A stretch of 64,000 nucleotides of DNA from contig NZ_JAPEPX010000001.1 of assembly GCF_026339935.1 (NCBI RefSeq), positions 3,548,001-3,612,000 of the forward strand. The letters run 5' to 3'. A program made the position numbers and the translations under genes. The DNA is from Streptomyces sp. NBC_01551. GTDB taxonomy: Bacteria > Actinomycetota > Actinomycetes > Streptomycetales > Streptomycetaceae. Below are positions 39,451 through 54,566 of this stretch, piece after piece; the first letter of the stretch is position 1; every line of letters begins with the position of its first letter. The notes under the pieces are model-generated. The model was given only the letters and a program-made list of their open reading frames with translations. It had not been told where the DNA came from and made no database searches.

Positions 39451-39493
39451 AGCACGTGGGGCCCCTGGCTGACAGCCAGGGGCCCCACGTGCT
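39451..39493. terminator. Perfect 20-bp hairpin between convergent operons
   Basis: 39451-39470 (AGCACGTGGGGCCCCTGGCT) is followed by the loop GAC and its exact complement at 39474-39493. It ends both the angucycline operon and the nitrogen operon. Confidence 0.92.
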
Positions 39494-39510
39494 TCCCGGT
39501 CTCCCGGGCG

Positions 39511-41397
39511 TCACTCGCCGATCTTGTCCCAGTGCCACGGGGAGTCGAACGAGGTGACCTCGACGTCCGTGCCGCCGGCGACCAGCGTGGCGGCCAGGCT
39601 CGTCGCCCCCGCGATGAACCCCGAGGTCCGGTGCGCCGCCAGCAGGTCCTGCTCGTCGAACGGCAGCCCCTCGCAGCGCAGCAGCCGCAGGTCCATGAAC
39701 CCGTTGAACTTCCGGCCCAGCACCTCGACCGCCTGCGGGCTGCGGACGGTGAAGCGCACGCGGGCCGCGACGTGGCCGTTGTGGTGCTGGTCCGAGTAGT
39801 ACGCGATGTCCGGGATCACCGGCGGTACGAAGTGGTCCCGCGCCGCGATCTCGGGGACCTTCGGGAGGTTCCCGACGAGGAAGTGCCACGAGTTGTACTG
39901 CATCCGCGAGGAGATGGCCCACGAGGTGTCGGCCAGGTGCGCGGCGGAGCCGCCGAAGAGCCGGCGCGCCTCGGGCGACGGTACGACGCAGCAGAAGAAG
40001 TGCGGGATCTCCCAGCCGGCGATCTCGGAGAACGACTCCGAGCGCAGCGCCGCGACCAGCGCGGGCAGCGAGCGCATCCCGCGGCTCATCGCGAAGTCGG
40101 CGTCGAAGACCTCCGCCGCCGCGCGCACCGTCTCGTAGACGAGGGACTCCAGGCCCGTGCCGAACTCGCCGTGCGGGACGGCCAGCCAGCCGGGCGCCGC
40201 CTCCAGGCCGGCGGTCTGCCCGGCGAGGGTGTCGCCGGTGACCGGGAGCCGCTCGCGCAGGCGTGCGCAGAGCTCCGCCTCCAGGCGCAGCGCGTCGTCC
40301 TTGACGGGGCCGGCGACCCGCTCGATCTTGTGCATGAGCGGGCCGTAGATCTCACGGTAGAGCTGTACGCCGCTCCCCATGAGCTCTCCGCGCCGTCCGG
40401 CCAGCGCACGGGCGAGCTCGCCGAGCGCGGCCACCCCGTGCGAGGCCGGGGCCGGCACCGGGGGCAGCGCGCCGGAGGCCGCGTTGTAGGCCGTGCGCGT
40501 GCGTTCGAGGAGGAGGGCCACGTGGTCCAGCGTGAGCTGGGTCCCGTTGGCCTCCTCGATCCGGCCGTACCCGGCCGACCGCACCAGCAGCGTGAGGCAG
40601 ACCACCAGCAGCACGTCGCTGTCCGACCAGAGTTCGAGCGGCACCGTCGCGAGGCTGCTCAGCACGCAGTCGGGGTGACCCGGCCGCAGTGTCTTGCCCG
40701 TCAGGTTGTTCTGGTCGCGGAAGTTGGTGTACCGGCGGCCGCCGGCGTAGAGGATGAACGGCGCCGTCCTGAGCGCCGCCTCCGTCAGGACGTCCAGCAG
40801 TGCGCGGCGGCCGTCGGCGTCGGCCGCCATCAGCCACTGGCGGCAGTCGGAGACCGAGGCGTACCAGCGGTCCTTGGCCAGGGCCAGTTCGACCTGGTAG
40901 TCCGCGAGGTCCTCGGCGGACCACGGCACCCGCAGCACGCCGTCGACCAGGTCGGCCTCGCTGCCCAGCGGCCCCTTGGAGGGGACCCGGACGACGAGCC
41001 GGCCGCTCTTGTCCAGCCCGATCTCGCCGAGGAACGCCGTCGCGGCGTCCTCGGCCCGGTCGACCGGCCGGCCGTCGTCCCGCCAGGACCTGCCGACCAG
41101 GACCTTCAGCGCGGTCTCGTCCTCCAGCGGGAGCGCCCGCAGCTGGATGTCCGCCGGGACGTGCCCGGCGAGCGTGAGGAGCGTGTCCACGGCCGTGGCC
41201 AGGTCCGGCGCGGCGGTCGCCCGCTGCCAGGTCTGCTTGAGCAGCGCCGGGAACCCGGCGTCGCTCTCCGTCATGTAGTCGGGCTCGCCCGCGGCGCCGG
41301 CGGGCCGGCCGAGGCGGCTGGGCCGCCGGCTCTGCCGTGCCTTCGCCAGGGCGGCCCGGCGGGGGAGCGCGCGGTCGCGTTCGGTGGGGAAGGTCAT
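39511..41397 (-). CDS. 628-residue orphan protein of the nitrogen operon
   Basis: I do not recognise this family. There is no signal peptide, membrane segment or nucleotide-binding motif. The first 60 residues are basic and Arg-rich. The middle has a helical, Leu-rich stretch (DHVALLLERTRTAYNAA). The C-terminal third has aromatic and His-rich parts (EIPHFFCCVVPSPEARRLFGG, RMQYNSWHFLVGN, AYYSDQHHNGHVAARVRF) that could bind metal or substrate. ATG 41397 overlaps the ferredoxin stop (ATGA), so it is probably the partner that receives electrons from that ferredoxin. It ends the operon of amidase, ligase and diiron-like protein, so a role in N-N bond or diazo chemistry is a fair guess. Confidence 0.75.
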   Translation of the reverse strand: MTFPTERDRALPRRAALAKARQSRRPSRLGRPAGAAGEPDYMTESDAGFPALLKQTWQRATAAPDLATAVDTLLTLAGHVPADIQLRALPLEDETALKVLVGRSWRDDGRPVDRAEDAATAFLGEIGLDKSGRLVVRVPSKGPLGSEADLVDGVLRVPWSAEDLADYQVELALAKDRWYASVSDCRQWLMAADADGRRALLDVLTEAALRTAPFILYAGGRRYTNFRDQNNLTGKTLRPGHPDCVLSSLATVPLELWSDSDVLLVVCLTLLVRSAGYGRIEEANGTQLTLDHVALLLERTRTAYNAASGALPPVPAPASHGVAALGELARALAGRRGELMGSGVQLYREIYGPLMHKIERVAGPVKDDALRLEAELCARLRERLPVTGDTLAGQTAGLEAAPGWLAVPHGEFGTGLESLVYETVRAAAEVFDADFAMSRGMRSLPALVAALRSESFSEIAGWEIPHFFCCVVPSPEARRLFGGSAAHLADTSWAISSRMQYNSWHFLVGNLPKVPEIAARDHFVPPVIPDIAYYSDQHHNGHVAARVRFTVRSPQAVEVLGRKFNGFMDLRLLRCEGLPFDEQDLLAAHRTSGFIAGATSLAATLVAGGTDVEVTSFDSPWHWDKIGE

Positions 41398-41738
41398 GCC
41401 GTTCCCCTGGAGGTCAGGTCGATGTGGTCCCACATCCGGGCCTCGGTCTCGGTCCAGTCCTCGTCGACGTAGATGCAGTCGACGGGGCAGACCATCACGC
41501 ACACCGGGCAGCCGGAGCAGAGCTCGGGGACGATCACGACGTTGAGCCCGTCGTCGAAGATCGCCCCGAACTCGGACGGGCAGGCCCGCAGGCACGTGTC
41601 ACATGTGATGCATTCCGACGTCTCGATGCGACGCGGTGGCTTCTTCCAGTTCTCGTCGCGGGACTGCCGCGCGATCCGCTCGCTGCGGCCGCCGCGTCCG
41701 GTGGTGGCTACGGAAGGAGTGTCTTTTACCCACGGCAT
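41394..41738 (-). CDS. 2[4Fe-4S] ferredoxin
   Basis: This 114-residue protein has two cluster motifs: C43-x2-C46-x2-C49-x3-C53 and C74-x2-C77-x2-C80-x3-C84, each followed by Pro, as in bacterial dicluster ferredoxins. A basic N-terminal extension of about 40 residues and a short C-terminal tail frame the core. It is coupled by ATGA overlap to the 628-residue orphan and follows the diiron-like gene by 30 bp. It would feed electrons to an oxidase or reductase in the nitrogen branch. Confidence 0.93.
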   Translation of the reverse strand: MPWVKDTPSVATTGRGGRSERIARQSRDENWKKPPRRIETSECITCDTCLRACPSEFGAIFDDGLNVVIVPELCSGCPVCVMVCPVDCIYVDEDWTETEARMWDHIDLTSRGTA

Positions 41739-41768
41739 GGTCTGTTCACCCTCACAAGAGATGGCCCG

Positions 41769-42563
41769 TCAGCGGGACTGCGCGGTGACGGCGTTCGAGA
41801 TGCCGTCCCACAGCCTGGTCCGGGCGTCGAGCGCGCGGTCGATGGTCTCCTTGCACTCGGACCACTTGACCTCGTCGTCGCCGCACAGGTCGGCGAGCAT
41901 CTGCATCGCCATCGGCGTGTGCTCCTCGGCGTCCACCTGGATGTGGCGCCGCAGGTAGTCGACGAAGGTGGACAGCGAGCCGAGGCCTGCGTTGAGCGCG
42001 GCGACCTGGTCGAACATGTCGGGGATCAGGTCCTCGCGACCGAAGGCGAACGCCGCGGCCTGGCAGTGGACGGGGGAGTGCTCGATGAACTCCCAGGTGG
42101 TCCCCACGAATTCGGCGACCGGGTGCGGCACCCCGGCCTCCTCCAGCGCGGCCGGGACGGGACGCCCCTCGCGCAGCAGGCCGACGAACGCGTCGATGCG
42201 CGTGGTGTCTGCACCCGACTGGCGCATGCCGTCGAGGTATAGCTCGAAGTGGCTGGTGAAACCCTCGCCGAGCTCGTCGCTCTCCTCGACGAGGACGATG
42301 TCGTTGATGAGCCGGCGGCTGCCGGTGGCGGCGGACGGCACCCACGGCACCTCGACGCAGGTCAGCTGCCGCTGGAGGGACTTGAGCAGCGACATGAAGT
42401 CCCACACCGCGAACACGTGGTGCTCCATGAACGTGACGACCGCGTCCACGGTGTTCAGCTGGTGGTAGAGCGGGTGGCTCAGGACCTTCTGACGGGCCGG
42501 CTCGATGGCGTCCTTGAGCGTCTCGATCGCCGGATCGGTGCCGTTCCATTCGTAGCGGGACAT
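41769..42563 (-). CDS. Heme-oxygenase-like diiron oxidase candidate (DUF3050 type)
   Basis: The 264-residue all-helical protein begins with [15 protein letters not shown] and has the putative ligand sets [37 protein letters not shown] and, near the end, [19 protein letters not shown]. The last is the H-x3-D-x3-H pattern of heme-oxygenase-like diiron oxidases (HDOs) such as SznF. DUF3050 proteins belong to this fold. HDOs oxidise amines, for example forming N-oxygenated and N-N bonded groups. In this operon, with a ligase, an amidase and a ferredoxin, N-oxidation or N-N formation is plausible but unproven. No heme motif is seen. Confidence 0.75.
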
Positions 42564-42611
42564 GTCTGTCTTCTCCTTGTGGTGAGGGGCGTGCGTGAGC
42601 TGGTGGATCGC

Positions 42612-44117
42612 TCAGAAGGCACCGAAGTACTCGCGGTGCTCCCACTCGGTGACGTCGCCCGGGGCGCCCGGGGCGGCCTCGGCCGCGCTCCAGGCGTCGA
42701 ACCGGTCGGCCTCGCTCTCCTTGAGCTTCGCCAGGCAGGACTTGAGGGGCGCGCCGAGCAGCCGCTCCGCGCGCTCGCTCGCGCGGAACGCCTCCAGCGC
42801 CTCGCGCAGGGTCCTCGGCAGGGGCGGCTGCGGCGCGCGGTCGGCGGGGACGCCGGAGAGCAGCCCGTCGAGGCCCGCGTGCAGCTGGGACGCGATGGCG
42901 AGGTACGGGTTGGCGCACGGTTCGCCGACGCGGTTCTCTACGTGTGTCGAGCTGCCCCCGCTGAGGACGCGGACCATGGCGCTGCGGTCCTCGAACCGCC
43001 AGTCGACGGAGGTCGGGGCGAGCGTGAACTCCGGGGACATCCGCCGGTATCCGTTCACGGTCGGGACGGACAGCAGGCTGAACTCCCGCGCGTGGGAGAG
43101 CAGGCCCCCGATGTACGCCTGGCCCGCCTCGGAGATGGCGTCCTGGAGGCCGTCGCCCTCGGCGAACAGGTTGAGGTTCGTCTTCGTGCTGGTGACGGAC
43201 TGGTGCAGGTGCCAGCCGCTGGGGTCGAAGCCCGCGAGGCGCGGCAGGGTCATGAAGGAGGCGTGGTGGCCGAGGCGCCGGCACTCCTGCTTGAGCTGGG
43301 TGCGGAACAGCAGCATCGCGTCGGCGGCGTCCAGCGCCAGCATCGGGTTGAACGTCGTCTCGAGCTGACCGGGACCCGACTCGTGCTCGAACGAGCGTAG
43401 GGGCAGGCCGAGTTGCATGAGCAGGGCGGCCAGCGGGTCGGCGATGTGGGACACCGAGTCGTAGGCGCTGTCGAGGTTGAACTGGTAGCCCGGGTTCACC
43501 GCCTCGACCTCGGGGGCGGCGCCCTGGAGGCCGAATCCGTTGCCCTCGTTGCCCACGGGGCCGCCGCCGGTCAGCCGGGTGAGGTACCACTCGACCTCCA
43601 GGCCGACGACCGGGGACAGGTCGTGCCGCGCGTACTCGGCGCAGACCCGGCGCAGGACGTTGCGCGCGGAGAGCGGGTGCGGCGTGCCGTCGCGCAGGTA
43701 CTCGGTCCCGAGCACCCAGGCCGTCCTCGCCCCGGCCCGGGGCAGTACCTGGAACGTGCGCGGATCGGGGACGAGGACGAAGTCGCCCGCGCCGCGCAGT
43801 TCGCCGACGCCCACGCCGGCGTCCTCCAGGAAGTCGACGGCGACGGCGTGGCCGGTGTCGAAGAGGAACGGCCCGGCGCTGAAGTCCATGCCGTTGCGCA
43901 GCACCGAGCGGAACACGTCCGCGGGCACGGTCTTGGACCGGGCGAGGCCGTGCGGGTCGCAGAACACGACCCGGACGAGGTCGACCTCGTCCAGCTGGAG
44001 TTCGACCTGCTCGGCCGCGGCGGCCTGCCGCTCGTCCCAGAGGCCGAACTCGGCGACGAAGGAGGGCCGTCCGACGCTGCTGTCACCGCCGTGCAGGGAC
44101 CAGGATCGGGAAACCAT
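42612..44117 (-). CDS. Glutamine synthetase-like ligase (KinL/FzmN type)
   Basis: This 501-residue protein has glutamine synthetase landmarks: VRVVFCDPHGLARSK (beta-grasp), GLEVEWYLTRL (metal Glu pair), ASFMTLPRLAGFDPSGWHLHQS (metal His, ATP region) and NPYLAIASQLHAGLDGL. The normal KP..GSG pattern is changed to LPRLAGFDPSG, as in amide ligases derived from GS. In fosfazinomycin and kinamycin pathways FzmN/KinL joins N-acetylhydrazine to the gamma-carboxyl of glutamate. The nearby amidase, lyase and acetyltransferase make the same reaction likely. Start is ATG 44117, six bases after GGAAG; an ATG 6 nt upstream is too close to it. Confidence 0.88.
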   Translation of the reverse strand: MVSRSWSLHGGDSSVGRPSFVAEFGLWDERQAAAAEQVELQLDEVDLVRVVFCDPHGLARSKTVPADVFRSVLRNGMDFSAGPFLFDTGHAVAVDFLEDAGVGVGELRGAGDFVLVPDPRTFQVLPRAGARTAWVLGTEYLRDGTPHPLSARNVLRRVCAEYARHDLSPVVGLEVEWYLTRLTGGGPVGNEGNGFGLQGAAPEVEAVNPGYQFNLDSAYDSVSHIADPLAALLMQLGLPLRSFEHESGPGQLETTFNPMLALDAADAMLLFRTQLKQECRRLGHHASFMTLPRLAGFDPSGWHLHQSVTSTKTNLNLFAEGDGLQDAISEAGQAYIGGLLSHAREFSLLSVPTVNGYRRMSPEFTLAPTSVDWRFEDRSAMVRVLSGGSSTHVENRVGEPCANPYLAIASQLHAGLDGLLSGVPADRAPQPPLPRTLREALEAFRASERAERLLGAPLKSCLAKLKESEADRFDAWSAAEAAPGAPGDVTEWEHREYFGAF

Positions 44118-44119
44118 GC

Positions 44120-44314
44120 TCATCTTCCTTTCGTTGTGAGGGCGGAGCGCGTCAGGGTGAGGCCGAGCACCACCTCCAGGAGTTCGGCCGCCGAGAGCAC
44201 GAGGTCGTCGTCTTCGCCTTCGACCCGGCCCGCGGGCTCGGCGGAGTACGAAGGGCGCACGGCGCCGCCCTCGTCGTCAGGCAGGGGCCACCACGATCTG
44301 AAGTCCATGATCAT
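44120..44314 (-). CDS. 64-residue protein resembling the amidase C-terminus
   Basis: The start ATG at 44314 overlaps the amidase stop (ATGA) and is preceded by AAGGA; the stop lies 2 bp before the ligase start. Residues about 30-64 (GRVEGEDDDLVLSAAELLEVVLGLTL) closely copy the amidase end (GRVGEDDLVLSAAGLLETALGLTL). The first 30 residues (DFRSWWPLPDDEGG) do not match it. It thus looks like a tail duplication that gained its own start, or a remnant kept in frame. No function is known; translational coupling between amidase and ligase is one possibility. Confidence 0.6.
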   Translation of the reverse strand: MIMDFRSWWPLPDDEGGAVRPSYSAEPAGRVEGEDDDLVLSAAELLEVVLGLTLTRSALTTKGR

Positions 44315-45729
44315 TTTCCTTCCGCTGTGATGCCGGGGGCTGACAGGGTGAGGCCGAGCGCCGTCTCCAGGAGGCCGGCGGCCGAGAGCACGAGGTCGTC
44401 TTCGCCGACCCGGCCCACGAGTTGGAGCCCGACCGGCAGCCCGGCCGGCGTGAGGCCGACGGGCAGCGACAGGGCGGGCTGGCCGGTGAGGTTGAAGGGG
44501 TAGGCCGCGGGGGCCCAGGCGAGCCATCGCAGGTCCCGCGGGTCGGCGGCCCACGGCGGGGCGATCGCCTCGGCCGCGAAGGCCTCGACCGGGACGGTCG
44601 CCATGACCAGCAGGTCGTAGGACTCCATCACCGAGGCGAGCCGCGCCCGCAGGGCGAGCCGGGCCGCCTCGGCGCGGGCCACCGAGGCGCCGCTCAGGGA
44701 GCGCCCGTAGCGCACGACCGCCAGCCGGCCCTCGTCGCACCACGCCTCGTCGCCGGGCGCGGTGCCGTGCGCGTCGGCGGCGGCGAGGATGTCCACCAGG
44801 GCGCCGTACGGGTCGGGGAACGGGGCCTCGATGCGGTCGACGCGGTGTCCCAGCGCGGCCAGCACCGGCAGGACGCCCTCGGTGACGTCGCGGACCGCGG
44901 CGGAGGTCCCCCGGAACTCGACCCAGCCGACGCGCAGCGGGGCGAGCGCCGCCCCGGACACGGACGGGGTCGTCGCCGAGTCGGGGTCCCGGTGGTCGGG
45001 GCCGCCCAGCACCGCCATGAGCTCGGCGACGTCCGCCACGCTCCGCGCGAGCGGCCCGACGTGGGACAACCGCTCGGCGCAGGGCGGCACGTAGGGGATC
45101 CGCCCGTAGGAGGGCTTGAACCCGACCACGCCGCAGAACGCCGCGGGAATGCGGACCGACCCGGCCCCGTCGGTGCCGAGCGAGGCGGTGCACAGGCCCG
45201 CCGCCACGGCGGCCGCGGAGCCGCCGCTGGAGCCGCCGGCGGTCCGGTCGAGCGCCCAGGGATTGCGGGTGGGGGCGGACACGCGGCTGACGGTGCTCGC
45301 GCTCCATCCGTACTCCGACGTGGTCGTCTTCCCCACGACGATGGCGCCCGCGGCCCGCAGCCGGGCCACGGAGGGCGCGTCGGCCGCGGGCCGCGGGTTC
45401 GGCAGCAACGACCCCCGCCTGGTAGGGATGTCCTGTGTCTGGATGAGGTCCTTCACCGACACCGTGACGCCGAGCAGCGGCCGGCCGCGGAAGGCGGCCT
45501 CGCCGAGACCGGCGATGAGGCGGTCGGCCGCCTCGGCCTCCCGCAGCGCGCGGGCCTCCGCGACCTCGACGTACGCGCCGAGCGCCGGGTCCGTCGCACG
45601 GATGGCGGTGAGCACGTCGACGACGTGCCCGGCGACCGTGGAATGCCCATCGAGAAGAAATTGCCGTGTTTCGTGAATGCCACGGCGGATCGGCTGTCTA
45701 CTCTTCGTTGTTGTCGTGGAGTCTGACAC
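44311..45729 (-). CDS. Amidase-signature hydrolase (KinK/FzmO type)
   Basis: The 472-residue protein has the amidase signature triad: Lys in VTVSVKDLIQ, the cis-Ser in TAGGSSGGSAAAVAAG and the nucleophile Ser in GTDGAGSVRIPAAFCG, then GFKPSYGR. Length is normal. FzmO/KinK-type amidases remove the acetyl group from N-acetyl-glutamylhydrazide, giving glutamylhydrazine; the same job is expected here. The start is uncertain: no in-frame ATG fits, and GTG 45729 gives the N-terminal helix expected for the family. The gene opens the nitrogen operon and is divergent from the second CMD-like gene, with a StrR-type operator between. Confidence 0.88.
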   Translation of the reverse strand: MSDSTTTTKSRQPIRRGIHETRQFLLDGHSTVAGHVVDVLTAIRATDPALGAYVEVAEARALREAEAADRLIAGLGEAAFRGRPLLGVTVSVKDLIQTQDIPTRRGSLLPNPRPAADAPSVARLRAAGAIVVGKTTTSEYGWSASTVSRVSAPTRNPWALDRTAGGSSGGSAAAVAAGLCTASLGTDGAGSVRIPAAFCGVVGFKPSYGRIPYVPPCAERLSHVGPLARSVADVAELMAVLGGPDHRDPDSATTPSVSGAALAPLRVGWVEFRGTSAAVRDVTEGVLPVLAALGHRVDRIEAPFPDPYGALVDILAAADAHGTAPGDEAWCDEGRLAVVRYGRSLSGASVARAEAARLALRARLASVMESYDLLVMATVPVEAFAAEAIAPPWAADPRDLRWLAWAPAAYPFNLTGQPALSLPVGLTPAGLPVGLQLVGRVGEDDLVLSAAGLLETALGLTLSAPGITAEGK

Positions 45730-45785
45730 GAGACCACTACAAGTCACCGGCTGAATTCCGTGCAACTTGCGGATTGCGGAGGGTG

Positions 45786-45814
45786 TTACATCTGCGCGCA
45801 TTCCGCAGTTGAAC
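45786..45814. promoter_or_regulatory. StrR-type operator 5 (amidase operon / CMD-like copy 2)
   Basis: TTACATCTG (45786-45794), 11 bp, CAGTTGAAC (45806-45814). The left arm is the same variant type as in operator 1 (TTTCATCTG). Confidence 0.65.
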
Positions 45815-45898
45815 GGGATTTCTTGCGAATGGGGCGAGCGGCGAGCAGCATGTTTCGGAGCTAATTCACACTCACTTATCGCACAGGAGAAGAACCCG

Positions 45899-46336
45899 AT
45901 GACTCCACGGATGGACAACCCTTCCCTGGTCGTTCCCGGCGCCCTGCAGCCCCTGCTCGACCTGACCGAGGTCATCGGCAAGGTCGGCGTGCCGCAGACG
46001 ACCCTCGACCTCGTCCGGCTCCGCGTCAGCGAGATCAACGGCCGCGTCTACACGCTCGCGCAGGACGCCGAGCAGGCGGACGAGCGGCTGCCGCTGGTGA
46101 AGAGCTGGCGGACCGAGTCCTGCTTCGCCGACGCCGAGCGCTCCGCGCTGGCGATGGCCGAGGCCGTCACCCTCATGACCGACCCGCAGGACATGGCGTC
46201 GGACGAGATCTGGGAGGACTCCTCCCAGTACTACAACGACGAGCAGCTCGGCGCGCTGGTCATGCACATCGGCCTGGTCAACTTCTGGAACCGCGTGAAC
46301 GTCGCCACCCAGCAGGAACCCGCGGCCTGGCGCTGA
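45899..46336 (+). CDS. CMD/AhpD-fold protein lacking redox cysteines (copy 2)
   Basis: This 145-residue protein is a paralogue of the one at 12710: PSLVVPGALQPLLDLTEVIGKVGVP, LVRLRVSEINGRVYTL, CFADAERSALAMAEA and HIGLVNFWNRVNVATQQEP. The NGCxxC motif is replaced by NGRVYT at Asn47, at exactly the same position as in copy 1. It ends about 20 residues earlier than copy 1. Start ATG 45899 follows AGGAGAAG. It leads an operon with a sulfotransferase-like gene and a sugar epimerase gene. The retained fold with lost cysteines suggests a non-redox role, perhaps binding a quinone intermediate. Confidence 0.75.
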   Translation: MTPRMDNPSLVVPGALQPLLDLTEVIGKVGVPQTTLDLVRLRVSEINGRVYTLAQDAEQADERLPLVKSWRTESCFADAERSALAMAEAVTLMTDPQDMASDEIWEDSSQYYNDEQLGALVMHIGLVNFWNRVNVATQQEPAAWR

Positions 46337-46354
46337 GGAAGGGGACGCATCACC

Positions 46355-47017
46355 GTGCTGAAGCTCATCAACGCCGGCCTGGGCCGGACCGGTACGACGT
46401 CACTGCAGGTGGCCCTGGACCAGCTCGGTCTCGGTCCCTGTTTTCACATGTTCGACATCGTCGGCGACGAGGGGCGCCTCGCGCAGTGGGAGAAGATCGT
46501 CTGCGACGGGGAGAGCCCCGACTGGGAGGCCGTGTTCGACGGGTACACCTCCGCGGTCGACGGCCCGTGCGCGGTCTTCTACAAGCAGATCAGCGAGGCG
46601 TTTCCCGAGGCCAAGGTGATCCTCACGGTGCGCGACGCGGAGGGCTGGTACCGCAGCACCTACGACACGCTCTACCAGTTCGCGCTGCGGACCGCGGAGC
46701 ACCCGCCGGAGCCGGGTTCGCGGCAGGACCGGCTGTTCCGGATCGTCTCCACCATGGTCTGGGACGGCCTCTTCGAGGGCCGGTTCGGCGACAAGGACCA
46801 CGCCATCGAGGCCTACCACCGGCACAACGCGGAGGTCGTGCGCGCCCTCGGCGCGGACAAGGTCCTCGTCTTCGACGTGAAGCAGGGGTGGGAGCCGCTG
46901 TGCGCGTTCCTCGGGGTCGAGGTGCCCGAGGGGGAGTTCCCGCGTGCCAACGACAGCGATTCCATGCGCCGGCGGATCGCCGAGGCGGCCGGGGCCGGTC
47001 CGGTCCCGGCCGGCTGA
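46355..47017 (+). CDS. Sulfotransferase-family protein
   Basis: The 220-residue product has an N-terminal phosphosulfate-type loop NAGLGRTGTTSLQVALDQLG, then FPEAKVILTVRDAEGWYRS, the strand-turn region for the 3'-phosphate, and a terminal VKQGWEPLCAFLGVEVP. This matches the Sulfotransfer_4-like family seen in many actinomycete clusters. It could sulfate the product or a sugar, or serve a non-sulfation role; no PAPS-supply gene is nearby. GTG 46355 lies 18 bp after the CMD-like gene. The epimerase follows after 18 bp. Confidence 0.8.
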   Translation: MLKLINAGLGRTGTTSLQVALDQLGLGPCFHMFDIVGDEGRLAQWEKIVCDGESPDWEAVFDGYTSAVDGPCAVFYKQISEAFPEAKVILTVRDAEGWYRSTYDTLYQFALRTAEHPPEPGSRQDRLFRIVSTMVWDGLFEGRFGDKDHAIEAYHRHNAEVVRALGADKVLVFDVKQGWEPLCAFLGVEVPEGEFPRANDSDSMRRRIAEAAGAGPVPAG

Positions 47018-47703: not shown

Positions 47704-47722
47704 TTCCGCTTTCGCGGGGTCC

Positions 47723-48739
47723 TCACCCGTTCTCGTTCGCCGAATCGGCCCGCGCGCGGATCCGGGCCATCAACGTGGCTTGCCGCACCAATTGCCGGTG
47801 GTGCACCCGGCGCGCCGCCGGATCGCGAATGGCGTCGTGGAACGCGCTGAACACGCCGAAGAACTGGTCCGACGCCGGGGCGAGGATCGTGGTCTCGCGG
47901 TCCTTCTGCTGGAGCCGCAGGAGCGGGCGGGCGTCCCGGGAGGGGGTGAACGCCCATTCCAGGATCAGCCGGCCCTCGCTGCCCCACAGGTCGTAGGTCG
48001 AGCGGTAGCTGTGGGACAGCCCGAAGGAACAGTTCGCGGTGACGCCGGCGCCGTCGCGCAGCAGCGCCGCCCCGGAGACGTCCACGCCCAGTTCCGCGTC
48101 GAACTCCAGGCCGGCCCCGAGGACCCTCGTCGCCGCCCCGAGGTACTCCTGGGCCGCGCGCACCGGGTAGCAGCCGACCTCCCACAGCGCCCCGCCGCCG
48201 AGGTCCGCCTGGTACTTGATGCCCTGCGGGTCGGTCGGCGGGATGCCGAACGAGCCGTTGAAGGCGCGCAGTTCCCCGATGGCCCCGTCGGCCAGCAGGG
48301 ACCGCGCCAGGTCGTGCTGGGGGTGCCGCAGGAACGCGAAGTTCTCCATGATGAGCAGTCCGCGCTCCTCGGCGAGCGCGACCAGGGCCCGGGCGGTTTC
48401 CTCGCTGGGCACGGCCGGCTTCTCGATCAGCACGTGCTTGCCCGCGCTCAGCGCCCGGTTCGCCCACTCGGCGTGCTCGCTGTTCGGCAGCGGGATGTAG
48501 ACCGCGTCGACGTCAGGCATGTCGAGGAGGCGGTCGTACCCCGCGACGGCCTCGCAGTCGAACGCGGCCGCGACGCCCTTGGCCTTCTCCTGGGACCGGC
48601 TCGCGACCGCCACCAGGTCGAACGCCGACTCCCGGATCGCCGGGAGCGCTCGCCGTACGGCGATGTCGGCGCACCCGATGACACCTATGCGGGTCCTCCG
48701 CTCGGATTCATGGACGGGTGCCAGATCTTCGTTTTTCAC
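47723..48739 (-). CDS. NDP-hexose 3-ketoreductase (Gfo/Idh/MocA family)
   Basis: The 338-residue protein has RIGVIGCADIAVRRALPAI, PLPNSEHAEWANRALSAGKHVLIEKP (the EKP motif) and GGGALWEVGCYPVRAAQ. It matches the 3-ketoreductases that follow 2,3-dehydratase (TylC1/OleW type). It reduces the 3-keto group of the unstable 3,4-diketo sugar, completing 2-deoxygenation. GTG 48739, preceded by AGGTGG, gives a short leader before the Rossmann domain. It is divergent from the thymidylyltransferase gene; no StrR-type site was found in the 196-bp gap. Confidence 0.88.
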   Translation of the reverse strand: MKNEDLAPVHESERRTRIGVIGCADIAVRRALPAIRESAFDLVAVASRSQEKAKGVAAAFDCEAVAGYDRLLDMPDVDAVYIPLPNSEHAEWANRALSAGKHVLIEKPAVPSEETARALVALAEERGLLIMENFAFLRHPQHDLARSLLADGAIGELRAFNGSFGIPPTDPQGIKYQADLGGGALWEVGCYPVRAAQEYLGAATRVLGAGLEFDAELGVDVSGAALLRDGAGVTANCSFGLSHSYRSTYDLWGSEGRLILEWAFTPSRDARPLLRLQQKDRETTILAPASDQFFGVFSAFHDAIRDPAARRVHHRQLVRQATLMARIRARADSANENG

Positions 48740-48935
48740 AGGTCCACCTAAACGACATAGGAATTCGTGTGCCTGAACGGGGATGACGCCAGCGTGGGCG
48801 GGCGGCGCTTTGTTCGTCAACACCCTTCGACTTACACGGCTCGTGGCATCGGAGGTGACTATCGGGCGCGCGTTCTCCCGATATAAAGTGCGGGCGTCCG
48901 CCTAATTGGCGCGAATAGACTGAGGAGGCGTCACG

Positions 48936-49805
48936 GTGAAGGGAATCATCCTGGCCGGCGGCAATGGTACGAGGCTCCACCCGATCACGCTCGGTGTATC
49001 AAAGCAAATGCTCCCGGTTTACGACAAGCCGATGATTTACTACCCGCTGTCGGCCCTGATGCTGGCGGGGATCACCGAGATCGAGATCATCACCACCCCT
49101 GAGGACCAGGAGATGTTCCGCCGGCTGCTGGGCGACGGCTCCTGGCTCGGAATCTCCCTGACCTACGCGGAGCAGGACAAGCCCCGCGGGGTCGCCGACG
49201 CGTTCCTGGTCTCCGCCGAGCACATCGGCGACGACTCCGTCGCCCTGGTGCTGGGCGACAACATCTTCCACGGCTACGAGTTCGGGCCCATGCTCCAGCG
49301 GGCCGCCCAGGACATCGAGGGCTGCGTCCTGTTCGGCTACCCGGTGCGCGACCCCGAGCGGTACGGCGTCGGCACGGTCGACGAGCGGGGCCGGCTCGTC
49401 TCGCTGGAGGAGAAGCCCGCCAACCCGCAGACCAACATGGCGGTCACCGGCCTGTACCTCTACGACAACCAGGTCGTGGACATCGCCCGGGAACTGCGGC
49501 CCTCCGACCGCGGCGAGCTGGAAATCACCGACCTCAACCGCGTCTACATGGAGCGGGGCGAGGCCACCCTGATTCCGCTCGGCCGCGGTTTCGTCTGGCT
49601 GGACACCGGAACGCACGACGCGCTGATGGAGGCGGGGGACTACGTACAGGTCCTGGAACACCGTCAGGGCGTGCGCATCGCCTGTCTCGAAGAGATCGCC
49701 TGGCGCATGGGATACATCGACCGGGAGGCCTGTTACCGGCTCGGAAGCCGCCTCGCGAAATCGGCGTACGGCCAATACATCATGGAAATGGCCCAGGCGG
49801 GCTGA
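48936..49805 (+). CDS. rmlA: Glucose-1-phosphate thymidylyltransferase
   Basis: This 289-residue enzyme makes dTDP-glucose from glucose-1-phosphate and dTTP. It has the nucleotidyl transferase motif LAGGNGTRLHPITLGVSKQ, KPMIYYPLS, LVLGDNIFHG and LEEKPANPQT. The C-terminal part ends with YRLGSRLAKSAYGQYI as in RmlA/StrD enzymes. The start in this region is GTG 48936, with AGGAGG upstream. It is followed by a glycosyltransferase gene 57 bp downstream. It starts the deoxysugar branch. Confidence 0.94.
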   Translation: MKGIILAGGNGTRLHPITLGVSKQMLPVYDKPMIYYPLSALMLAGITEIEIITTPEDQEMFRRLLGDGSWLGISLTYAEQDKPRGVADAFLVSAEHIGDDSVALVLGDNIFHGYEFGPMLQRAAQDIEGCVLFGYPVRDPERYGVGTVDERGRLVSLEEKPANPQTNMAVTGLYLYDNQVVDIARELRPSDRGELEITDLNRVYMERGEATLIPLGRGFVWLDTGTHDALMEAGDYVQVLEHRQGVRIACLEEIAWRMGYIDREACYRLGSRLAKSAYGQYIMEMAQAG

Positions 49806-49862
49806 GCGCGGACGGCGCACCGAGGAACGCATCCACCCTCTCACCGAAAGAAGTCCCCTCGC

Positions 49863-50939
49863 ATGAAAATCCTCTTCACCGTCGGTGGCAGCCAGGCGGC
49901 CGTCTTCGGCGTCTCCCCGCTCGCCGCGGCCGCGCGCAACGCGGGCCACGAGATCCTGGTGGCCGCCGACGAGCCGCTGATGGCCGCCGCGGCGTCCGTG
50001 GGGCTCCCGGCCGTCTGCATCACCCCCGAACGCATGCGGTACGGCCAGGAGTCCATGACGGCCGCCGTCCGGCTCGACGCGCTGCTGGAGCTCACGCGGG
50101 CGTGGACACCGGATCTGGTCGTCGGCGGCCTCTCCCACGTCCCGCGGGTGCTCGCCGCCCGTCTCAAGGTCCCCTACGTCCGCCACATCTGGCACATCGC
50201 CCCGATGGCCCGCCGCGACCGCAAGGCGGTGGAGGAACTCCAGCCGGAGCTGCGGCGCCTGGGCCTGTCCGAACTGCCGGAGCCCGACCTCTTCATCGAC
50301 CTGTGCCCGCCCTCGCTGCGCCCGCCGGGCGCCCCGGCCGCGCGGTCCATGCGCTGGGTCCCCCGGGTGAGCCAGAGCCGGCTGGAGCCCTGGATGTACA
50401 CCCGTCCCGAGGGCCGCCACCGGGTGCTGATCACCGCGGGCACCCGCAACCTCATGCTCGACACCCCCGGCAATTCGCTGCGGGGGCTGGTGGACGGCCT
50501 GACCGGCGCGGGCGCCGAGGTGCTGATCGCGGCGCTCCCCGAGGCCGCCGAGCGGTTCGGCCCGGAGCTGGGCGACGTCCGGATCGGCTGGATACCCCTG
50601 GACGTGGTCGCCCCCACCTGTGACCTGGCGGTCCACCACGGCGGCGCGACCACCGCCATGACGCTGATCAACGCGGGCGTGCCCCAGCTGGTCATCCCCG
50701 ACAACGGCTACGGCAAGGCCGTCGCCGAGGCCGTCAGCGGCTTCGGCGCCGCCCTGATGGTGGACCGGCACCGGCCGGAGGCCGGCCAGGACCCCGACGA
50801 GGTGATCGCGGCCGGCTGCCGGGAGATCCTCTCGGACCCCGGCTACGCCGAGCGGACCCGGACCCTGGCCCGGGAGAGCGCGTCGCTGCCGACCCCCGGC
50901 GAGGTGCTGCGCGAGCTGGAAGCCCTCGTCGCACCCTGA
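49863..50939 (+). CDS. Glycosyltransferase GT1 (paralogue A)
   Basis: The 358-residue GT-B enzyme has MKILFTVGGSQAAVFGVSPLA, the WMYTRPEGRHRVLITAGT joint and DLAVHHGGATTAMTLINAGVPQLVIP (donor-binding HHGG). It is a close paralogue of the one at 51143-52324 but about 35 residues shorter. No helper-protein type motif is seen. It should transfer a deoxysugar to the polyketide or extend a sugar chain. It lies in an operon with the thymidylyltransferase and ends at a double hairpin shared with its paralogue. Confidence 0.9.
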   Translation: MKILFTVGGSQAAVFGVSPLAAAARNAGHEILVAADEPLMAAAASVGLPAVCITPERMRYGQESMTAAVRLDALLELTRAWTPDLVVGGLSHVPRVLAARLKVPYVRHIWHIAPMARRDRKAVEELQPELRRLGLSELPEPDLFIDLCPPSLRPPGAPAARSMRWVPRVSQSRLEPWMYTRPEGRHRVLITAGTRNLMLDTPGNSLRGLVDGLTGAGAEVLIAALPEAAERFGPELGDVRIGWIPLDVVAPTCDLAVHHGGATTAMTLINAGVPQLVIPDNGYGKAVAEAVSGFGAALMVDRHRPEAGQDPDEVIAAGCREILSDPGYAERTRTLARESASLPTPGEVLRELEALVAP

Positions 50940-50983
50940 CCGACGGCGTCGCACCCCGACCGACAGCGCACCCCGACCGACAG

Positions 50984-51020
50984 CGTGGCGGCCGGTGCCC
51001 GACGGGCACCGGCCGCCACG
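50984..51020. terminator. Hairpin between convergent glycosyltransferase genes (first)
   Basis: CGTGGCGGCCGGTGCC (50984-50999) pairs with 51005-51020 across CGACG. Confidence 0.7.
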
Positions 51021-51044
51021 CATGCGCATCGCCCGGGGCCACAC

Positions 51045-51098
51045 GCGAATCGCCCTGAGACCGACGGAGCGGGGCTCCGTGGTCTCAGGGCGATTCGC
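51045..51098. terminator. Long two-tier hairpin (second)
   Basis: GCGAATCGCCCTGAGACC (51045-51062) pairs exactly with 51081-51098; the enclosed segment folds again as ACGGAGC/GCTCCGT. Together with the hairpin at 50984 it isolates the two convergent genes. Confidence 0.75.
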
Positions 51099-51142
51099 TG
51101 TGCGGGGGGTGACCGGCGGGCGGTCCGCCGGGTACGGGGTGC

Positions 51143-52324
51143 TTAGCGCGAAGCCAGGGCCTCCAGCTTGGGCACGATCTCGGCGGGCGTGGGCAGCGTC
51201 GAGATCTCCTTGGCGAGGAACTGCGTCCGCTCGGTGTAGCTCGGCTCCTCCAGCAGCTCCTTGCAGGCGGCGGCGATGACCTCGCCGGGAGCCTTGTCGG
51301 GCTCCTGCGCCTGCGGCCACAGCGTCTTGCCGGCGCCGAAGCCGCTGATGGCCTTGGCGATGGCCTCCCGGTGGTAGTTCGGCGGGAACTCCGGCGGGTT
51401 CTCCGGGATGATCAGCTGCGGCACGCCGTTGGCCATCAGGGTCGTGGCCGTGGTCGCACCGCCGTGGTGGACCGCCAGGTCACAGGTGGCGGCGGCGACG
51501 TCCATCGGGATCCAGCCGACGCGGGCGTCGCCCAGCTCCGAGCCGAACCGCTCGGCCGCACCCGGGGACGCCGCGATCAGCACCTCGGCGTTCAGCTTGC
51601 CCAGCTCGCTCACCAGCAGCGGCATGGACCAGCCCGGGTCGCGGAACATCAGGCTGCGGAAGCCCGAGGTGACCAGGACGCGGCGGCGCCCCTCGGGGCG
51701 GGTGTACATCCAACGCTCCAGCCGGCGCTGCGGGTTGCTGGGGATCCAGCGCAGCGGCTGAGCGGTGGGGTCGTGGGACGGCCGCAGAGACGGCGGGGTC
51801 GAGTCGAGGAGCAGGTCGGGCTTGAGCAGCCCGTCCAGGCCCAGGCGCTCCAGCTCGGGCCGGAGCTCCTCCTCGGCGCCCGGGTCGATGCCGGTGAGCG
51901 GGATCCCCAGGTACTCGACCTGGCGCACGTACGGGACGCGCAGGTGGGCGGCGAGCAGCATCGCCGCGTAGCTCTGCGAGCTGCCGACGACCACGTCGGG
52001 CGTCCAGTCCTTCGTCAGCTCCAGCAGGGACTCCAGCCCCGCCAGACCCATCCGCGCGAAGCCGCGACCCTGGCCGAACATCTCCTCGTCGCCCAGTTCG
52101 CGGGGGAAGCGCAGGCCCCGGCCCGGGTTGGTGATCCGCATGAAGTGCCGGATCGGGTCGACCGTGTAGCAGAACGTGGGAAGTCCGATGGCTTCCGCGG
52201 TTTCCACCCACGGTTCGTGGCCGGCCAATATGACCTGATGGCCCGCGTTCCGCGCGGCCGTCGCCAGGGGGGCGGCGGCGTAGAAGGTGGCCTGGCTGCC
52301 CGTGGTGATGAACAGGATTTTCAT
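51143..52324 (-). CDS. Glycosyltransferase GT1 (paralogue B)
   Basis: This 393-residue enzyme starts MKILFITTGSQATFYAAAPLA and has RWMYTRPEGRRRVLVTSGF and DLAVHHGGATTATTLMANGVPQLIIP, all near-copies of the segments in paralogue A. It has an extra stretch around MFGQGRGFARMGLAGLESL and a longer linker after the donor motif. Two close enzymes plus the DesVII-type one suggest two or three different glycosylations. It is divergent from the hydrazine-forming operon and shares with it a StrR-type operator. Its start has no strong ribosome binding site apart from GGAGTGCC just upstream. Confidence 0.9.
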   Translation of the reverse strand: MKILFITTGSQATFYAAAPLATAARNAGHQVILAGHEPWVETAEAIGLPTFCYTVDPIRHFMRITNPGRGLRFPRELGDEEMFGQGRGFARMGLAGLESLLELTKDWTPDVVVGSSQSYAAMLLAAHLRVPYVRQVEYLGIPLTGIDPGAEEELRPELERLGLDGLLKPDLLLDSTPPSLRPSHDPTAQPLRWIPSNPQRRLERWMYTRPEGRRRVLVTSGFRSLMFRDPGWSMPLLVSELGKLNAEVLIAASPGAAERFGSELGDARVGWIPMDVAAATCDLAVHHGGATTATTLMANGVPQLIIPENPPEFPPNYHREAIAKAISGFGAGKTLWPQAQEPDKAPGEVIAAACKELLEEPSYTERTQFLAKEISTLPTPAEIVPKLEALASR

Positions 52325-52430
52325 GGCACTCCGGATGCTTTTCGTGAGACGCGGCCCAACGGATTTGTGAACGCCACCGATGTTCCCCAGCGCGCTGTTT
52401 TTCTGTCAATCGCCCTTAAAAGGCGACCCC

Positions 52431-52459
52431 GTTCGAATGCGGATTTCGCGCAGTTGAAC
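52431..52459. promoter_or_regulatory. StrR-type operator 6 (glycosyltransferase B / lyase operon)
   Basis: GTTCGAATG (52431-52439), 11 bp, CAGTTGAAC (52451-52459), between divergent genes. Confidence 0.72.
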
Positions 52460-52580
52460 AGGGCGACTCCATGGCGACTCCATGGCAATGTCGGAGATGC
52501 CGCGACGTCCGGCGGCCGGTCACCATGAGATCAGGACGGGAAACCCTCAAGAACGCGGATATCGAAAGTCGGTGGCACTC

Positions 52581-52844
52581 ATGAACAACCTGATCTACAA
52601 CGCCCGAATGGCTCTGCGGGACATCATGGAAGTCAACATCTTCACGCAGGGGAACGACAAGGTCTATCTGACCGTTTTCCCGGACCTGGTCTGGGAGGGC
52701 ACCGAGGACACGCACACGGAAAAGGTCATCCACTCCGTGATCGGCCGTCTCCACGACATGGACCTGGACGTCGTCGGCGGCGACGCGGCCGTCACCACCC
52801 TCCTGGAGGCCGGCTCCGTGGAGATCGTGCGGAAGGTCGCCTGA
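52581..52844 (+). CDS. 87-residue orphan in the hydrazine operon
   Basis: This small acidic protein is not recognised. It begins MNNLIYNARMALRDIMEVNI and ends GSVEIVRKVA, with alternating beta strands (VYLTVFPDLVW) and an Asp/Gly-rich turn, so a small ferredoxin-like or alpha/beta fold is conceivable. It has no Cys cluster and no signal peptide. It leads the operon containing the lyase and acetyltransferase genes, which begins after StrR-type operator 6. A candidate for a missing subunit or accessory factor of the N-N pathway. Confidence 0.65.
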   Translation: MNNLIYNARMALRDIMEVNIFTQGNDKVYLTVFPDLVWEGTEDTHTEKVIHSVIGRLHDMDLDVVGGDAAVTTLLEAGSVEIVRKVA

Positions 52845-52909
52845 GAGCCGGTGCGCCGCGCTTTCGCGTCCCGCGGGCCGGTGGTCATTCCTGAGGAGGT
52901 TCGACGGTA

Positions 52910-54199
52910 GTGATATCGCGTTATTCATTGCCCGAGATGGCGGAGCTCTGGTCCGATCAGGCCCGCTATGACACCTGGGCCGAGGTGGAGGTCCTCGCCT
53001 CCGAGGCGCAGGTGCTGCTGGGCCGGGTTCCCGAGGCGGCGCTGGCGGACATCCGGCGGGCCCGGGTGCCTTCGGCGGCGCGCGTCGCGGAACTCGAACG
53101 CGAGCGGGACCACGAGATCCTCTCCTTCCTCGCCGCGTTCTGCGAGGACATGCCGGACGACTCCGCCCGCTGGGTGCACCTCGGCATGACGAGCTACGAC
53201 CTCGTGGACACCGCCCTCGGGTACACCCTGGCCCGCGCCTGCGACGTCCTCACCGGCGCGGTGGTGCGGCTGCGCGCGGTCCTGGTGGAGAAGGCGGTCG
53301 AGCACTGGGACACGGCGTGCATCGGGCGCACCCACGGGATGCACGCCGAGCCCACGACGTTCGGCCACAAGCTCGCCGGCTTCGCCTTCGCCATCGACCG
53401 CTCGGTCCGCCGGCTCGCGGACGCCCGCGAGCAGGTCGCGGTGGGCACGATCTCCGGCTCCGTCGGGACGTACGCGCTCATCGACCCGTTCGTCGAGCAG
53501 CACGTGTGCGGGGCGCTCGGCCTCGGCGTGGAGCCGGCGCCGAGCCAGGTCGTGGCCCGCGACCGGCACGCCCAGCTCGTCCAGGCGATCGCCACGCTCG
53601 GCGCCTGCGTGGAGCAGATCGCCACCGAGGTCCGGCACCTGTCCCGCAGCGAGGTACGGGAGGTGGAGGAGCCCCGTACGGCCGCCTACCAGGGGTCGAG
53701 CGCCATGCCGCACAAGCGCAACCCGACGACCAGCGAGCGCCTGACCGGGCTGGCCCGGCTGCTGCGCGGGTACGCCGGGATGGTGTTGGAGGACGTGGCG
53801 CTGTGGCACGAGCGGGACCTGTCCCACTCGTCCGTCGAGCGGGTCGCGCTGCCGGACGCGCTGATCGTCGCGCACTACCAGGCGACCGCGGCGGCGGATC
53901 TCGTGCGGGGGCTCCAGGTGTTCCCCGACCGGATGCGCGACGCGATCGACCAGACCAACGGGCTGGCCTACAGCTCGGCGGTGCTCGCCGACCTGCTGGA
54001 GGGCGGCAGCGAGCGCGAGCGGACGTACCGGATGATCCAGGACGCCGCGAACGGGGAGGACTTCTTCACCCTGCTCAGTGCCGAGGGCGTCGAGGCCGAG
54101 CTGCTGGGGCCCGAGCGCTTCCTGGTACACCATGACGTCATTCACAAGCGATTGGAGCACCTTCGTGAGCCGGAGCATTCAGCGGGAGAACGGCCCTGA
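52910..54199 (+). CDS. Adenylosuccinate lyase homologue (KinM/FzmR type)
   Basis: The 429-residue protein belongs to the fumarase/aspartase superfamily: [19 protein letters not shown] (catalytic His), the signature [18 protein letters not shown] with the mobile catalytic Ser loop, and an N-terminal [13 protein letters not shown]. In fosfazinomycin and kinamycin pathways this type of lyase releases fumarate from N-acetyl-hydrazinosuccinate to give acetylhydrazine. It is not a duplicate of purine synthesis by context: it sits beside the acetyltransferase of the same pathway. GTG 52910 follows GAGGAGG. Its last 35 bases overlap the acetyltransferase gene. Confidence 0.88.
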
Positions 54200-54566
54200 C
54201 CTCGATCTCGGGGAGGTTCTGCGGGTCTACCGGGAGTCGGGCCTGGGAGAGCGGCGCCCGATCGACGAGACCGACCGCATGGCCGCGATGGTGCGGGGCG
54301 CCAACCTGGTCGTCACCTGCCGCGTCGACGGCGAGCTCGTCGGCATCGCGCGCAGCGTCTCGGACTTCGCGTACGTGACCTACCTCTCCGACATCGCCGT
54401 CGTCCGCGCCCACCAGCGCTCGGGCATCGGGAAGGAACTCATCGACGCCACCCGCAAGGAGGCGCCGCAGGCCAAGATCGTCCTGCTGTCGGCGCCCGCC
54501 GCCGCGGAGTACTACCCGCACATCGGCTTCACCGCGCACCAGTCCGCCTGGGTCCTGAACCCCTGA
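54165..54566 (+). CDS. GNAT N-acetyltransferase (KinN/FzmQ type)
   Basis: This 133-residue GNAT protein has GELVGIARSVSDFAYVTYLSDIAV, the acetyl-CoA-binding loop VRAHQRSGIGKELIDAT (Q/RxxGxG/A) and AAEYYPHIGFTAH near the end. The start is GTG 54165, inside the end of the lyase gene, with TTGGAGC upstream. The family role in the pathway is acetylation of hydrazinosuccinate before the lyase step. The overlap with the lyase gene supports their joint action. It converges with the multicopper oxidase gene at a perfect hairpin. Confidence 0.87.
   Translation: MSRSIQRENGPDLDLGEVLRVYRESGLGERRPIDETDRMAAMVRGANLVVTCRVDGELVGIARSVSDFAYVTYLSDIAVVRAHQRSGIGKELIDATRKEAPQAKIVLLSAPAAAEYYPHIGFTAHQSAWVLNP

Follow-up and report, generated by a model that had tools for sequence, protein, structure and literature searches.

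According to the cited parts of PMC6133997 and PMC12181624, nitrite labels the nitrogen–nitrogen (N–N) bond of kinamycin, and homologues of CreE and CreD are needed. The hydrazine cassette was named as KinK (amidase), KinL (ligase), KinM (lyase) and KinN (acetyltransferase), with KinJ then unassigned in the cited part of PMC6133997. As described in the section of PMC12154649 drawn on here, most KinJ clusters lack CreDE, and KinJ weakly accepts nitrate too. For lomaiviticin (lom), the excerpted list of the conserved set runs Lom29, 30, 32, 33, 34 and 35, skipping Lom31 (PMC6470958), and AlpH is reported as conserved in the nenestatin (nes) and fluostatin (fls) clusters (PMC10477347, in part). 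Here we describe a related gene cluster in a 64,000-nucleotide stretch of Streptomyces sp. NBC_01551 (contig NZ_JAPEPX010000001.1, positions 3,548,001 to 3,612,000; hereafter the window, in whose numbering positions are given), in which a gene of the DUF3050 family, the family of HamA from fragin biosynthesis, lies inside a hydrazine operon.

We read the cluster, with reasonable confidence, as one for a glycosylated, perhaps sulfated, N–N-bearing benzofluorene, and propose, much less firmly, the DUF3050 enzyme as the nitrogen oxide (NOx) source for KinIJ. Sequence comparison indicates a real and well-conserved relative of the clusters for the DNA-damaging antibiotics kinamycin and lomaiviticin, and the predicted product, if made, would be a new glycosylated, perhaps sulfated, diazo compound. 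Genes were called by codon-position GC and identified by profile searches (Pfam and NCBIfam) and PDB matches. The names KinJ, KinI, AlpJ and Alp1W are our assumption from family, residues and context, while the name AlpH is anchored on PDB entry 8h3t.

The hydrazine cassette

The cassette genes, with the DUF3050 gene among them, are as follows.

39511..41397, minus strand: KinJ/FzmP/Lom29-type haem enzyme (putative N–N bond formation), by residues and homology
41394..41738, minus strand: KinI-type 2[4Fe-4S] ferredoxin, by Fer4 families and two CxxCxxCxxxCP motifs
41769..42563, minus strand: DUF3050/HamA-type haem-oxygenase-like enzyme, proposed NOx supply, by family profile and fold
42612..44123, minus strand: KinL/FzmN-type glutamine synthetase (GS)-like ligase (predicted to load acetylhydrazine onto glutamate), PF00120, 205.9 bits
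44311..45711, minus strand: KinK/FzmO-type amidase (predicted to give glutamylhydrazine), PF01425, 320.6 bits
52910..54199, plus strand: KinM/FzmR-type lyase, PF00206, purB 395.1 bits
54165..54566, plus strand, alternative start 54078: KinN/FzmQ-type N-acetyltransferase (GNAT), by profile search

The KinJ-type protein matches no Pfam or NCBIfam family in profile searches. The published active-site positions of KinJ are C468, R497, M498, N501, H504, H541, R551 and R570 (PMC12154649, cited part). The window protein carries all eight, as C469, R498, M499, N502, H505, H542, R552 and R571, with identical spacing. Of the 12 other homologues, 11 show this spacing pattern, and none of the eight positions varies in the 13-row alignment. 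The protein thus fits KinJ, a predicted haem N–N enzyme at the centre of the cassette. The ferredoxin stop overlaps the KinJ start by ATGA, and its position and motifs are as expected for KinI, the putative partner of KinJ.

The first-pass annotation, made from the letters and reading frames of this DNA, had proposed an amidase (44311), GS-like ligase (42612), lyase (52910) and GNAT (54165) of the KinK/L/M/N kind, and profile searches find all four there, the ligase scoring under cut-off in each of the five NCBIfam models that it touches. Trees that include paralogues or CreD as an outgroup place KinK, KinL and the lyase among their kin- and lom-type counterparts and separate from the paralogues (support 92/97, 100/99 and 100/99, respectively); the KinK branch is not starred, the inner order of the cassette trees is partly unresolved, and the KinL tree joins the window to the lom type (100/99). 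Identities were compared with five kin-type clusters, named by context, and seven lom-type clusters (six for KinN). Identity to the kin and lom types, respectively, is 58–63% and 67–74% for KinJ, 62–66% and 67–82% for KinK, 63–65% and 74–82% for KinL, 66–74% and 77–84% for the lyase, and 67–75% and 77–85% for KinN, the last figures being pairwise, with no outgroup tree. At the level of sequence, the four proteins are confirmed as KinK/L/M/N homologues, by trees for the first three and by pairwise identity for the GNAT; the result that the first-pass annotation had named as refuting it, a placement outside the KinK/L/M/N clades, did not arise in these comparisons. Absent from the first-pass annotation were KinJ, KinI and DUF3050 (39511–42563), the UvrA paralogue and sulfotransferase described below, the continuation past 64000, and the absence of CreD and CreE.

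A HamA-type gene in the hydrazine operon

The most interesting element of the cluster is the DUF3050 gene, which sits between KinI and KinL, in the slot of the skipped Lom31. Its product belongs to the HamA/DUF3050 family by profile and modelled fold, the nearest fold being that of HamA (40% identity, shared fold), followed by UndA and the N-oxygenase HrmI. The fragin/valdiazen (ham) pathway, like the present one, needs oxidised nitrogen of unsettled origin; it differs in having a non-ribosomal peptide synthetase and an AurF-like N-oxygenase, in making a diazeniumdiolate, and in the lack of KinJ from its described cluster (PMC5878181, PMC11659414, cited parts). We found no earlier report tying DUF3050 or HamA to lom or kin in the open-licence literature, two lom cluster papers being outside its reach. 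A DUF3050 protein of Micromonospora echinospora, here not connected with the nes cluster, is 79% identical to the window copy.

A scan with an AlpH alignment gave 42 loci (L numbers), from which a 37-genome panel (G numbers) was drawn, comprising the present genome and 36 others; L023 and L046 come from genomes already represented by other loci, and L044, L045, L047 and L048 were excluded as distant. KinJ is matched in 35 of the 37 genomes (none in G001 and G016) and CreD exceeds its cut-off in 11. DUF3050 occurs in 18 genomes; in 16 of them it is no more than 5 kb from KinJ, and none of these 16 has CreD over cut-off (Fisher p 6e-4 for 37 genomes, 2e-4 for the 35 with KinJ), while G004 and G006 have both, DUF3050 being on another contig. 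Among the 23 lom-type genomes, 15 have DUF3050, none has CreD and eight have neither; among the 14 kin-type and composite genomes, 11 have CreD, one (Dactylosporangium) has an in-cluster DUF3050 and two have neither, one of these being the fragmented S. rochei genome, with CreE at 78%. In a sample of the class, DUF3050 occurs anywhere in the genome in 14 of 393 genomes, the present one included. In the DUF3050 tree, starred branches force linkage to KinJ to have changed at least twice (counting P0284 as KinJ-linked, its neighbourhood unseen, and with L139 a 120-residue piece), the Dactylosporangium protein being placed outside the lom-type clade (100/99). The present genome (98.56% complete) has no CreE match and no CreD over cut-off, the best hit (124.7 bits) being its own cassette lyase; its best narG match scores 23.5 bits, assimilatory nitrate reductase and nitric oxide synthase not having been searched genome-wide.

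With CreE and CreD absent, the DUF3050 enzyme may make nitrite or another NOx equivalent for KinIJ, a role to which we give not quite even chances. More tentatively still, DUF3050/HamA could be a dedicated O2-using nitrite/NOx source for N–N bonds, replacing CreE/CreD in lom-type and Dactylosporangium kin-type clusters and doing the same job in fragin/valdiazen-type diazeniumdiolate clusters.

Several observations weigh against these proposals. The genomes of the co-occurrence test are related by descent, so that rows are not independent and the p values overstate the case. In eight of the 23 lom-type genomes, DUF3050 is missing and CreD does not reach its cut-off (narG is present in six and not in two; in G016, one of the eight, no KinJ is matched and the AlpH contig stops before that place). 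Of the 16 genomes with in-cluster DUF3050, 11 hold a CreE-like gene (33–58%) elsewhere, interrupted in three cases by a stop within the matched frame, and two of the 11 (Salinispora) have a CreD-like gene near it. The changes of KinJ linkage in the DUF3050 tree may reflect two recruitments, or one recruitment and one departure. The 2018 fragin work, in its cited part, has HamC donating NO2 and HamA hydroxylating valine (PMC5878181). Finally, DUF3050 of G160 (L113/L136) adjoins angucycline-type cyclase, SDR (short-chain dehydrogenase/reductase) and FAD-oxygenase homologues in a genome where KinJ is missing and KinL-like matches do not exceed 36%, and further DUF3050 genes occupy loci without the cassette. 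Because of G160 and these cassette-free loci, the family is not tied to hydrazines, and an N–N role for every DUF3050 is rejected.

The G160 neighbourhood and the copies in other polyketide-type loci would also suit an enzyme that oxidises a polyketide or tailoring intermediate and has no nitrogen role. We consider this unlikely, since the window gene sits in the hydrazine operon, the separately placed Dactylosporangium copy is KinJ-linked too, and none of the four composite genomes (two of them mapped; see below) has DUF3050 despite keeping the tailoring set.

Other candidates for the nitrite supply were rejected. As a substitute, narG is unsupported (8 of 10 genomes with neither gene vs 16 of 27 others, p 0.44), and a molybdoenzyme of the present genome (L148:4563–6761) scores 154.1 bits as NasC against a cut-off of 1100. 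No substitute gene was found in the DUF3050 slot, KinL and KinI being adjacent in the G013 and G018 maps; in both genomes, a gene of 247–248 residues elsewhere has a match in Salinispora, to a gene that shows a bare DUF218 hit. The gene at 61734–64349 was not accepted as a hidden CreE: it shares the broad PF13454, its best BLAST score to CreE is 28.5 bits over 44 residues, it has no meaningful PDB match, and a homologue is retained in composite G008, which has CreDE; it might still be another N-hydroxylase. The CreE query itself matches PDB entry 8cp2, labelled FAD-binding protein, which we take to be the aspartate N-hydroxylase of PMC10404684.

Two other DUF3050 settings were observed by eye. 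A second DUF3050 gene occupies a conserved locus (L121, L110, L111, L122; Salinispora and others) with ketosynthase (KS) genes and HPPD-/E1-subunit-like N-termini. In L109, L115, L116 and L123, DUF3050 lies near a PabAB-like synthase and an AMP-ligase homologue, where arylamine N-oxygenation might be meant.

The polyketide core and the AlpH-like protein

The first-pass annotation had listed a full type II polyketide synthase set with AlpJ-like and AlpH-like proteins, and all are present.

29512..29781, plus strand: acyl carrier protein, PF00550
31434..32258, minus strand: SDR, polyketide ketoreductase candidate, by profile search, conserved in related clusters
32332..33465, plus strand: AlpH-like protein (putative hydrazine coupling), best PDB match AlpH (8h3t)
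33522..38654, plus strand: three FAD_binding_3 oxygenases and a didomain polyketide cyclase (35036–35995), by profile search
38694..39434, plus strand: AlpJ-type ring-contracting oxygenase, ABM domain, 24.2 bits (cut-off 23.1)
58490..61505, minus strand: chain length factor (CLF), KS-alpha and TcmI-type cyclase (residues 69–173 of the frame opening at 61505), by profile search

The PDB matches of the AlpJ-like protein are labelled anthrone oxidase-like or anthrone monooxygenase, and we take these to be AlpJ relatives. The AlpH-like protein, whose start is possibly 32437 (homologues have 342 residues), matches 8h3t at 370.6 bits, the next PDB entry scoring 226.6. A tree separates AlpH and the AlpH-like proteins from MmcR, LaPhzM, CalO6 and other methyltransferases (100/99), with the window side (17 rows) supported at 100/100, and the S-adenosylmethionine (SAM) motif is blocked (DVIAGRG vs DFCGGQG). 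The tree and the SAM motif rule out an ordinary methyltransferase. Residues K266/H267/H270/D271 are kept (KHIIHD vs KHIVHD), a K/H/H/D set that occurs in MmcR too. At the position of the motif glycine, most of the AlpH clade has Cys and most of the window clade has Ile, Val or Asn; since L018 and L037 keep Gly while the clades differ in replacement, closure of the SAM site may have occurred twice.

Two findings weigh against a coupling role. The AlpH pocket residues F157, M174, M177 and L252 are L, F, L and Y in the window subclade (F170, W317 and L318 are retained), and composite clusters hold a true AlpH alongside the window-type protein, which may therefore do something other than coupling. 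Because of both, coupling is a role that we infer for this protein.

The altered pocket also bears on the end product. The N–N machinery could be active and yet lead to a glycoside without a diazo group, whether hydrazide, hydrazone, azo or amine (stealthin-like): fluostatin clusters carry the cassette, and their dominant products, in the cited part of PMC6470958, are without a diazo group, and the present cluster encodes an amine-oxidase-type flavoprotein and a PhsA-like oxidase. The complete cassette, the AlpH-clade protein and the UvrA paralogue would fit a DNA-damaging diazo compound, however, and we hold a non-diazo product to be the less probable outcome by some distance.

Still less probable, in our view, is a glycosylated diazobenzofluorene in which DUF3050 acts late, oxidising the hydrazide or hydrazone adduct made by the AlpH-like protein to the diazo while general metabolism provides the nitrite. 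In its favour, hydrazones are turned into diazo compounds by Dob3, a diiron enzyme of the FDO family (PMC13061610, cited part), and KinJ makes weak use of nitrate; however, the kinamycin adduct gradually became prekinamycin without such an enzyme (PMC10477347, cited part), and the DUF3050 gene is flanked by KinL and KinI within the hydrazine operon and is lost with the lom-type core in composites.

Sugar genes and putative sulfation and resistance genes

The sugar genes named in the first-pass annotation (RmlA, RmlB, 2,3-dehydratase, ketoreductase, epimerase and three glycosyltransferases) were all recovered, alongside sulfation and resistance genes.

13283..15675, minus strand: NDP-hexose 2,3-dehydratase and dTDP-glucose 4,6-dehydratase (RmlB), by profile searches
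15869..18262, minus strand: UvrA paralogue, 667.1 bits to UvrA, cut-off of 729.8 not reached
20549..21859, minus strand: EryCIII-like glycosyltransferase, by profile search
46355..47017, plus strand: sulfotransferase, PF17784
47036..49805: RmlC-like epimerase (plus), Gfo/Idh/MocA ketoreductase (minus) and RmlA (plus), by profile searches
49863..50939, plus strand: EryCIII-like glycosyltransferase, by profile search
51143..52324, minus strand: EryCIII-like glycosyltransferase, by profile search
Window-equivalent 64432–67279 (L129:7432–10279), past the window: CysN, a PAPS-reductase-domain protein placed like CysD, and adenosine 5′-phosphosulfate (APS) kinase (CysC), by profile searches

An NDP-deoxysugar pathway with glycosyltransferases is thus present, as for glycosylated angucyclines, with no 4-ketoreductase among the identified genes, and would point to a 2,6-dideoxysugar and up to three glycosylations. 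The sulfotransferase and the CysN/D/C genes, whose APS kinase is one of two copies in the genome, suggest sulfation with a dedicated supply of 3′-phosphoadenosine 5′-phosphosulfate (PAPS), and the UvrA paralogue is a likely self-resistance determinant against DNA damage.

Relatives and composite clusters

The 42 loci form two sets, AlpH-like proper (64–99%) and window-like (52–56% to AlpH), the latter covering Streptomyces, Salinispora, Actinomadura, Actinoallomurus, Thermomonospora, Kibdelosporangium, Rhodococcus and Kineosporia. Across most of the window-like set, the block SDR27-AlpH-oxygenases-AlpJ-KinJ-KinI-(DUF3050)-KinL is repeated. Judged by synteny, the cluster would span about 65 kb, roughly from 8.5 kb of the window to 10 kb beyond its end, and synteny across tens of kb in many genera rules out chance. 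S. wedmorensis (NRRL 3426) and Streptomyces sp. NBC_00568 have a closely similar cluster (mostly 75–94% identity) that holds 11 additional genes in the interval from the first glycosyltransferase to FAD19, where the window has 286 bp (21859–22146), either a reduced version or the ancestral state. Ten of the 11, scanned in one genome, comprise MFS, ATP-grasp, PhyH, FGE-sulfatase-like, metallo-beta-lactamase-fold, esterase, asparagine synthase, beta-eliminating-lyase and PNPOx-like genes and one without a match.

Composite clusters in S. coelicoflavus and S. jeddahensis carry the tailoring set at 70–93% identity (27 and 24 of 28 listed genes, respectively) next to a kin-type core that is 41–84% identical, only the TcmI-type cyclase exceeding 80%, and lack DUF3050. 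Of four composite genomes, these two were mapped, G035 and G036 being judged from L042, L043, L046 and the places of KinJ and CreD. The tailoring set beside a kin-type core with a true AlpH is the best evidence for a diazobenzofluorene scaffold and supports a glycosylated, perhaps sulfated, product; at the level of genes, the composites show core and tailoring halves exchanged as modules. Against giving them full weight, a look through 100 kb of each mapped composite gave no KS-alpha or CLF (L096–L100, L101–L105); in these stretches, FAD31 has no counterpart, the UvrA paralogue is missing in G007, and the laccase and CysN/D/C are missing in G008. The glycosylated diazobenzofluorene of the first-pass annotation is therefore upheld, as a predicted product, by the cassette, the AlpH clade and the composites, and qualified by the altered pocket and the coexisting true AlpH.

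The same annotation had called the cluster gene-wise distinct from kinamycin and lomaiviticin. With kin/alp it shares KinI–N, AlpH and AlpJ homologues and an amidotransferase of the Alp1W class, but AlpJ is 48–53% and AlpH 48–52% identical, the window adds sugars and three glycosyltransferases, and CreD, over cut-off in 11 of 14 kin-type and composite genomes, is not so in its own. With Salinispora loci that are presumably lomaiviticin-type, it shares the SDR/AlpH/oxygenase/AlpJ block and the orders KinJ-KinI-DUF3050-KinL-KinK and lyase-GNAT, at 63–81% identity, and glycosylation; the S. pacifica CNR114 order is KinJ, KinI, DUF3050, KinL, KinK, lyase, GNAT. Despite this equal order of core and cassette, an ordinary lomaiviticin cluster is highly improbable: the CNR114 cluster has an LnmK-type enzyme (which we take to be a lom marker), an acyltransferase and a DegT (sugar) aminotransferase, none of them among the scanned window genes (3230–8479 not scanned), and the window has the 2,6-dideoxysugar set, the sulfotransferase and CysN/D/C, with two glycosyltransferases only 49 and 57% alike with Salinispora. 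The claim of distinctness from lomaiviticin thus holds for tailoring and starter genes and fails for the core and hydrazine cassette; by gene content and homology, the latter are lomaiviticin-type, and the sugar, glycosyltransferase, sulfotransferase and sulfate-activation genes form a separate tailoring set.

Other genes of the window

The cluster is dense and uses both strands. The remaining features, identified by profile search unless a family is given, are listed below.

9894..11656, minus strand: ATP-binding cassette (ABC) exporter pair
11927..12628, plus strand: glutamine amidotransferase, Alp1W-like by class, PF07722
18965–20479: TAP-like hydrolase, proposed as Alp1U-like in the first-pass annotation
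22098..28577: FAD oxygenases starting at 22098 (plus), 25603 (minus) and 27099 (minus), and an amine-oxidase-type flavoprotein at 23994 (minus)
28695..31400: tailoring genes, SDR 28695 (plus), NmrA 29800 (plus) and Rv2466c/DSBA-like 30783 (minus)
54624..58466, minus strand: PhsA-like multicopper oxidase and ABC transporter
61734..64000, continuing to 64349 past the window, minus strand: FAD-NAD(P)-binding protein, PF13454

The multicopper oxidase (54624–56561) is related to the o-aminophenol oxidase PhsA (643 bits, cut-off of 950 not reached). Small proteins at 12710–13216 and 45911–46336 have similar N-termini and are both retained with the tailoring set, and one matches the CMD family. Conserved cluster proteins at 8490–9725 and 52581–52844 have no Pfam match, and a Stealth-domain/GT4 protein at 302–3136 lies outside the cluster.

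Proposed pathway and implications

On the model of its relatives, and by homology here, KinIJ would join aspartate and nitrite to give hydrazinosuccinate, the GNAT and lyase would convert this to acetylhydrazine, the GS-like ligase would load acetylhydrazine onto glutamate, and the amidase would release glutamylhydrazine. AlpJ-type ring contraction, AlpH-like coupling to the polyketide and oxidation would then lead to the diazo group. A 2,6-dideoxysugar, up to three glycosylations, sulfation from the dedicated PAPS supply and UvrA-type self-protection may complete the scheme. Its least certain step, and the new one, would be the formation by DUF3050 of nitrite/NOx for KinIJ from some nitrogen source.

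The module exchange seen in the composite clusters is useful for engineering. For the proposed NOx supply, the cluster offers a single operon-borne candidate gene from a genome that lacks the tested alternatives, together with a named relative, S. wedmorensis NRRL 3426. If the proposal is true, two unrelated N–N pathways share one missing first step, and HamA, whose role in diazeniumdiolates is unproven, would gain a testable function.

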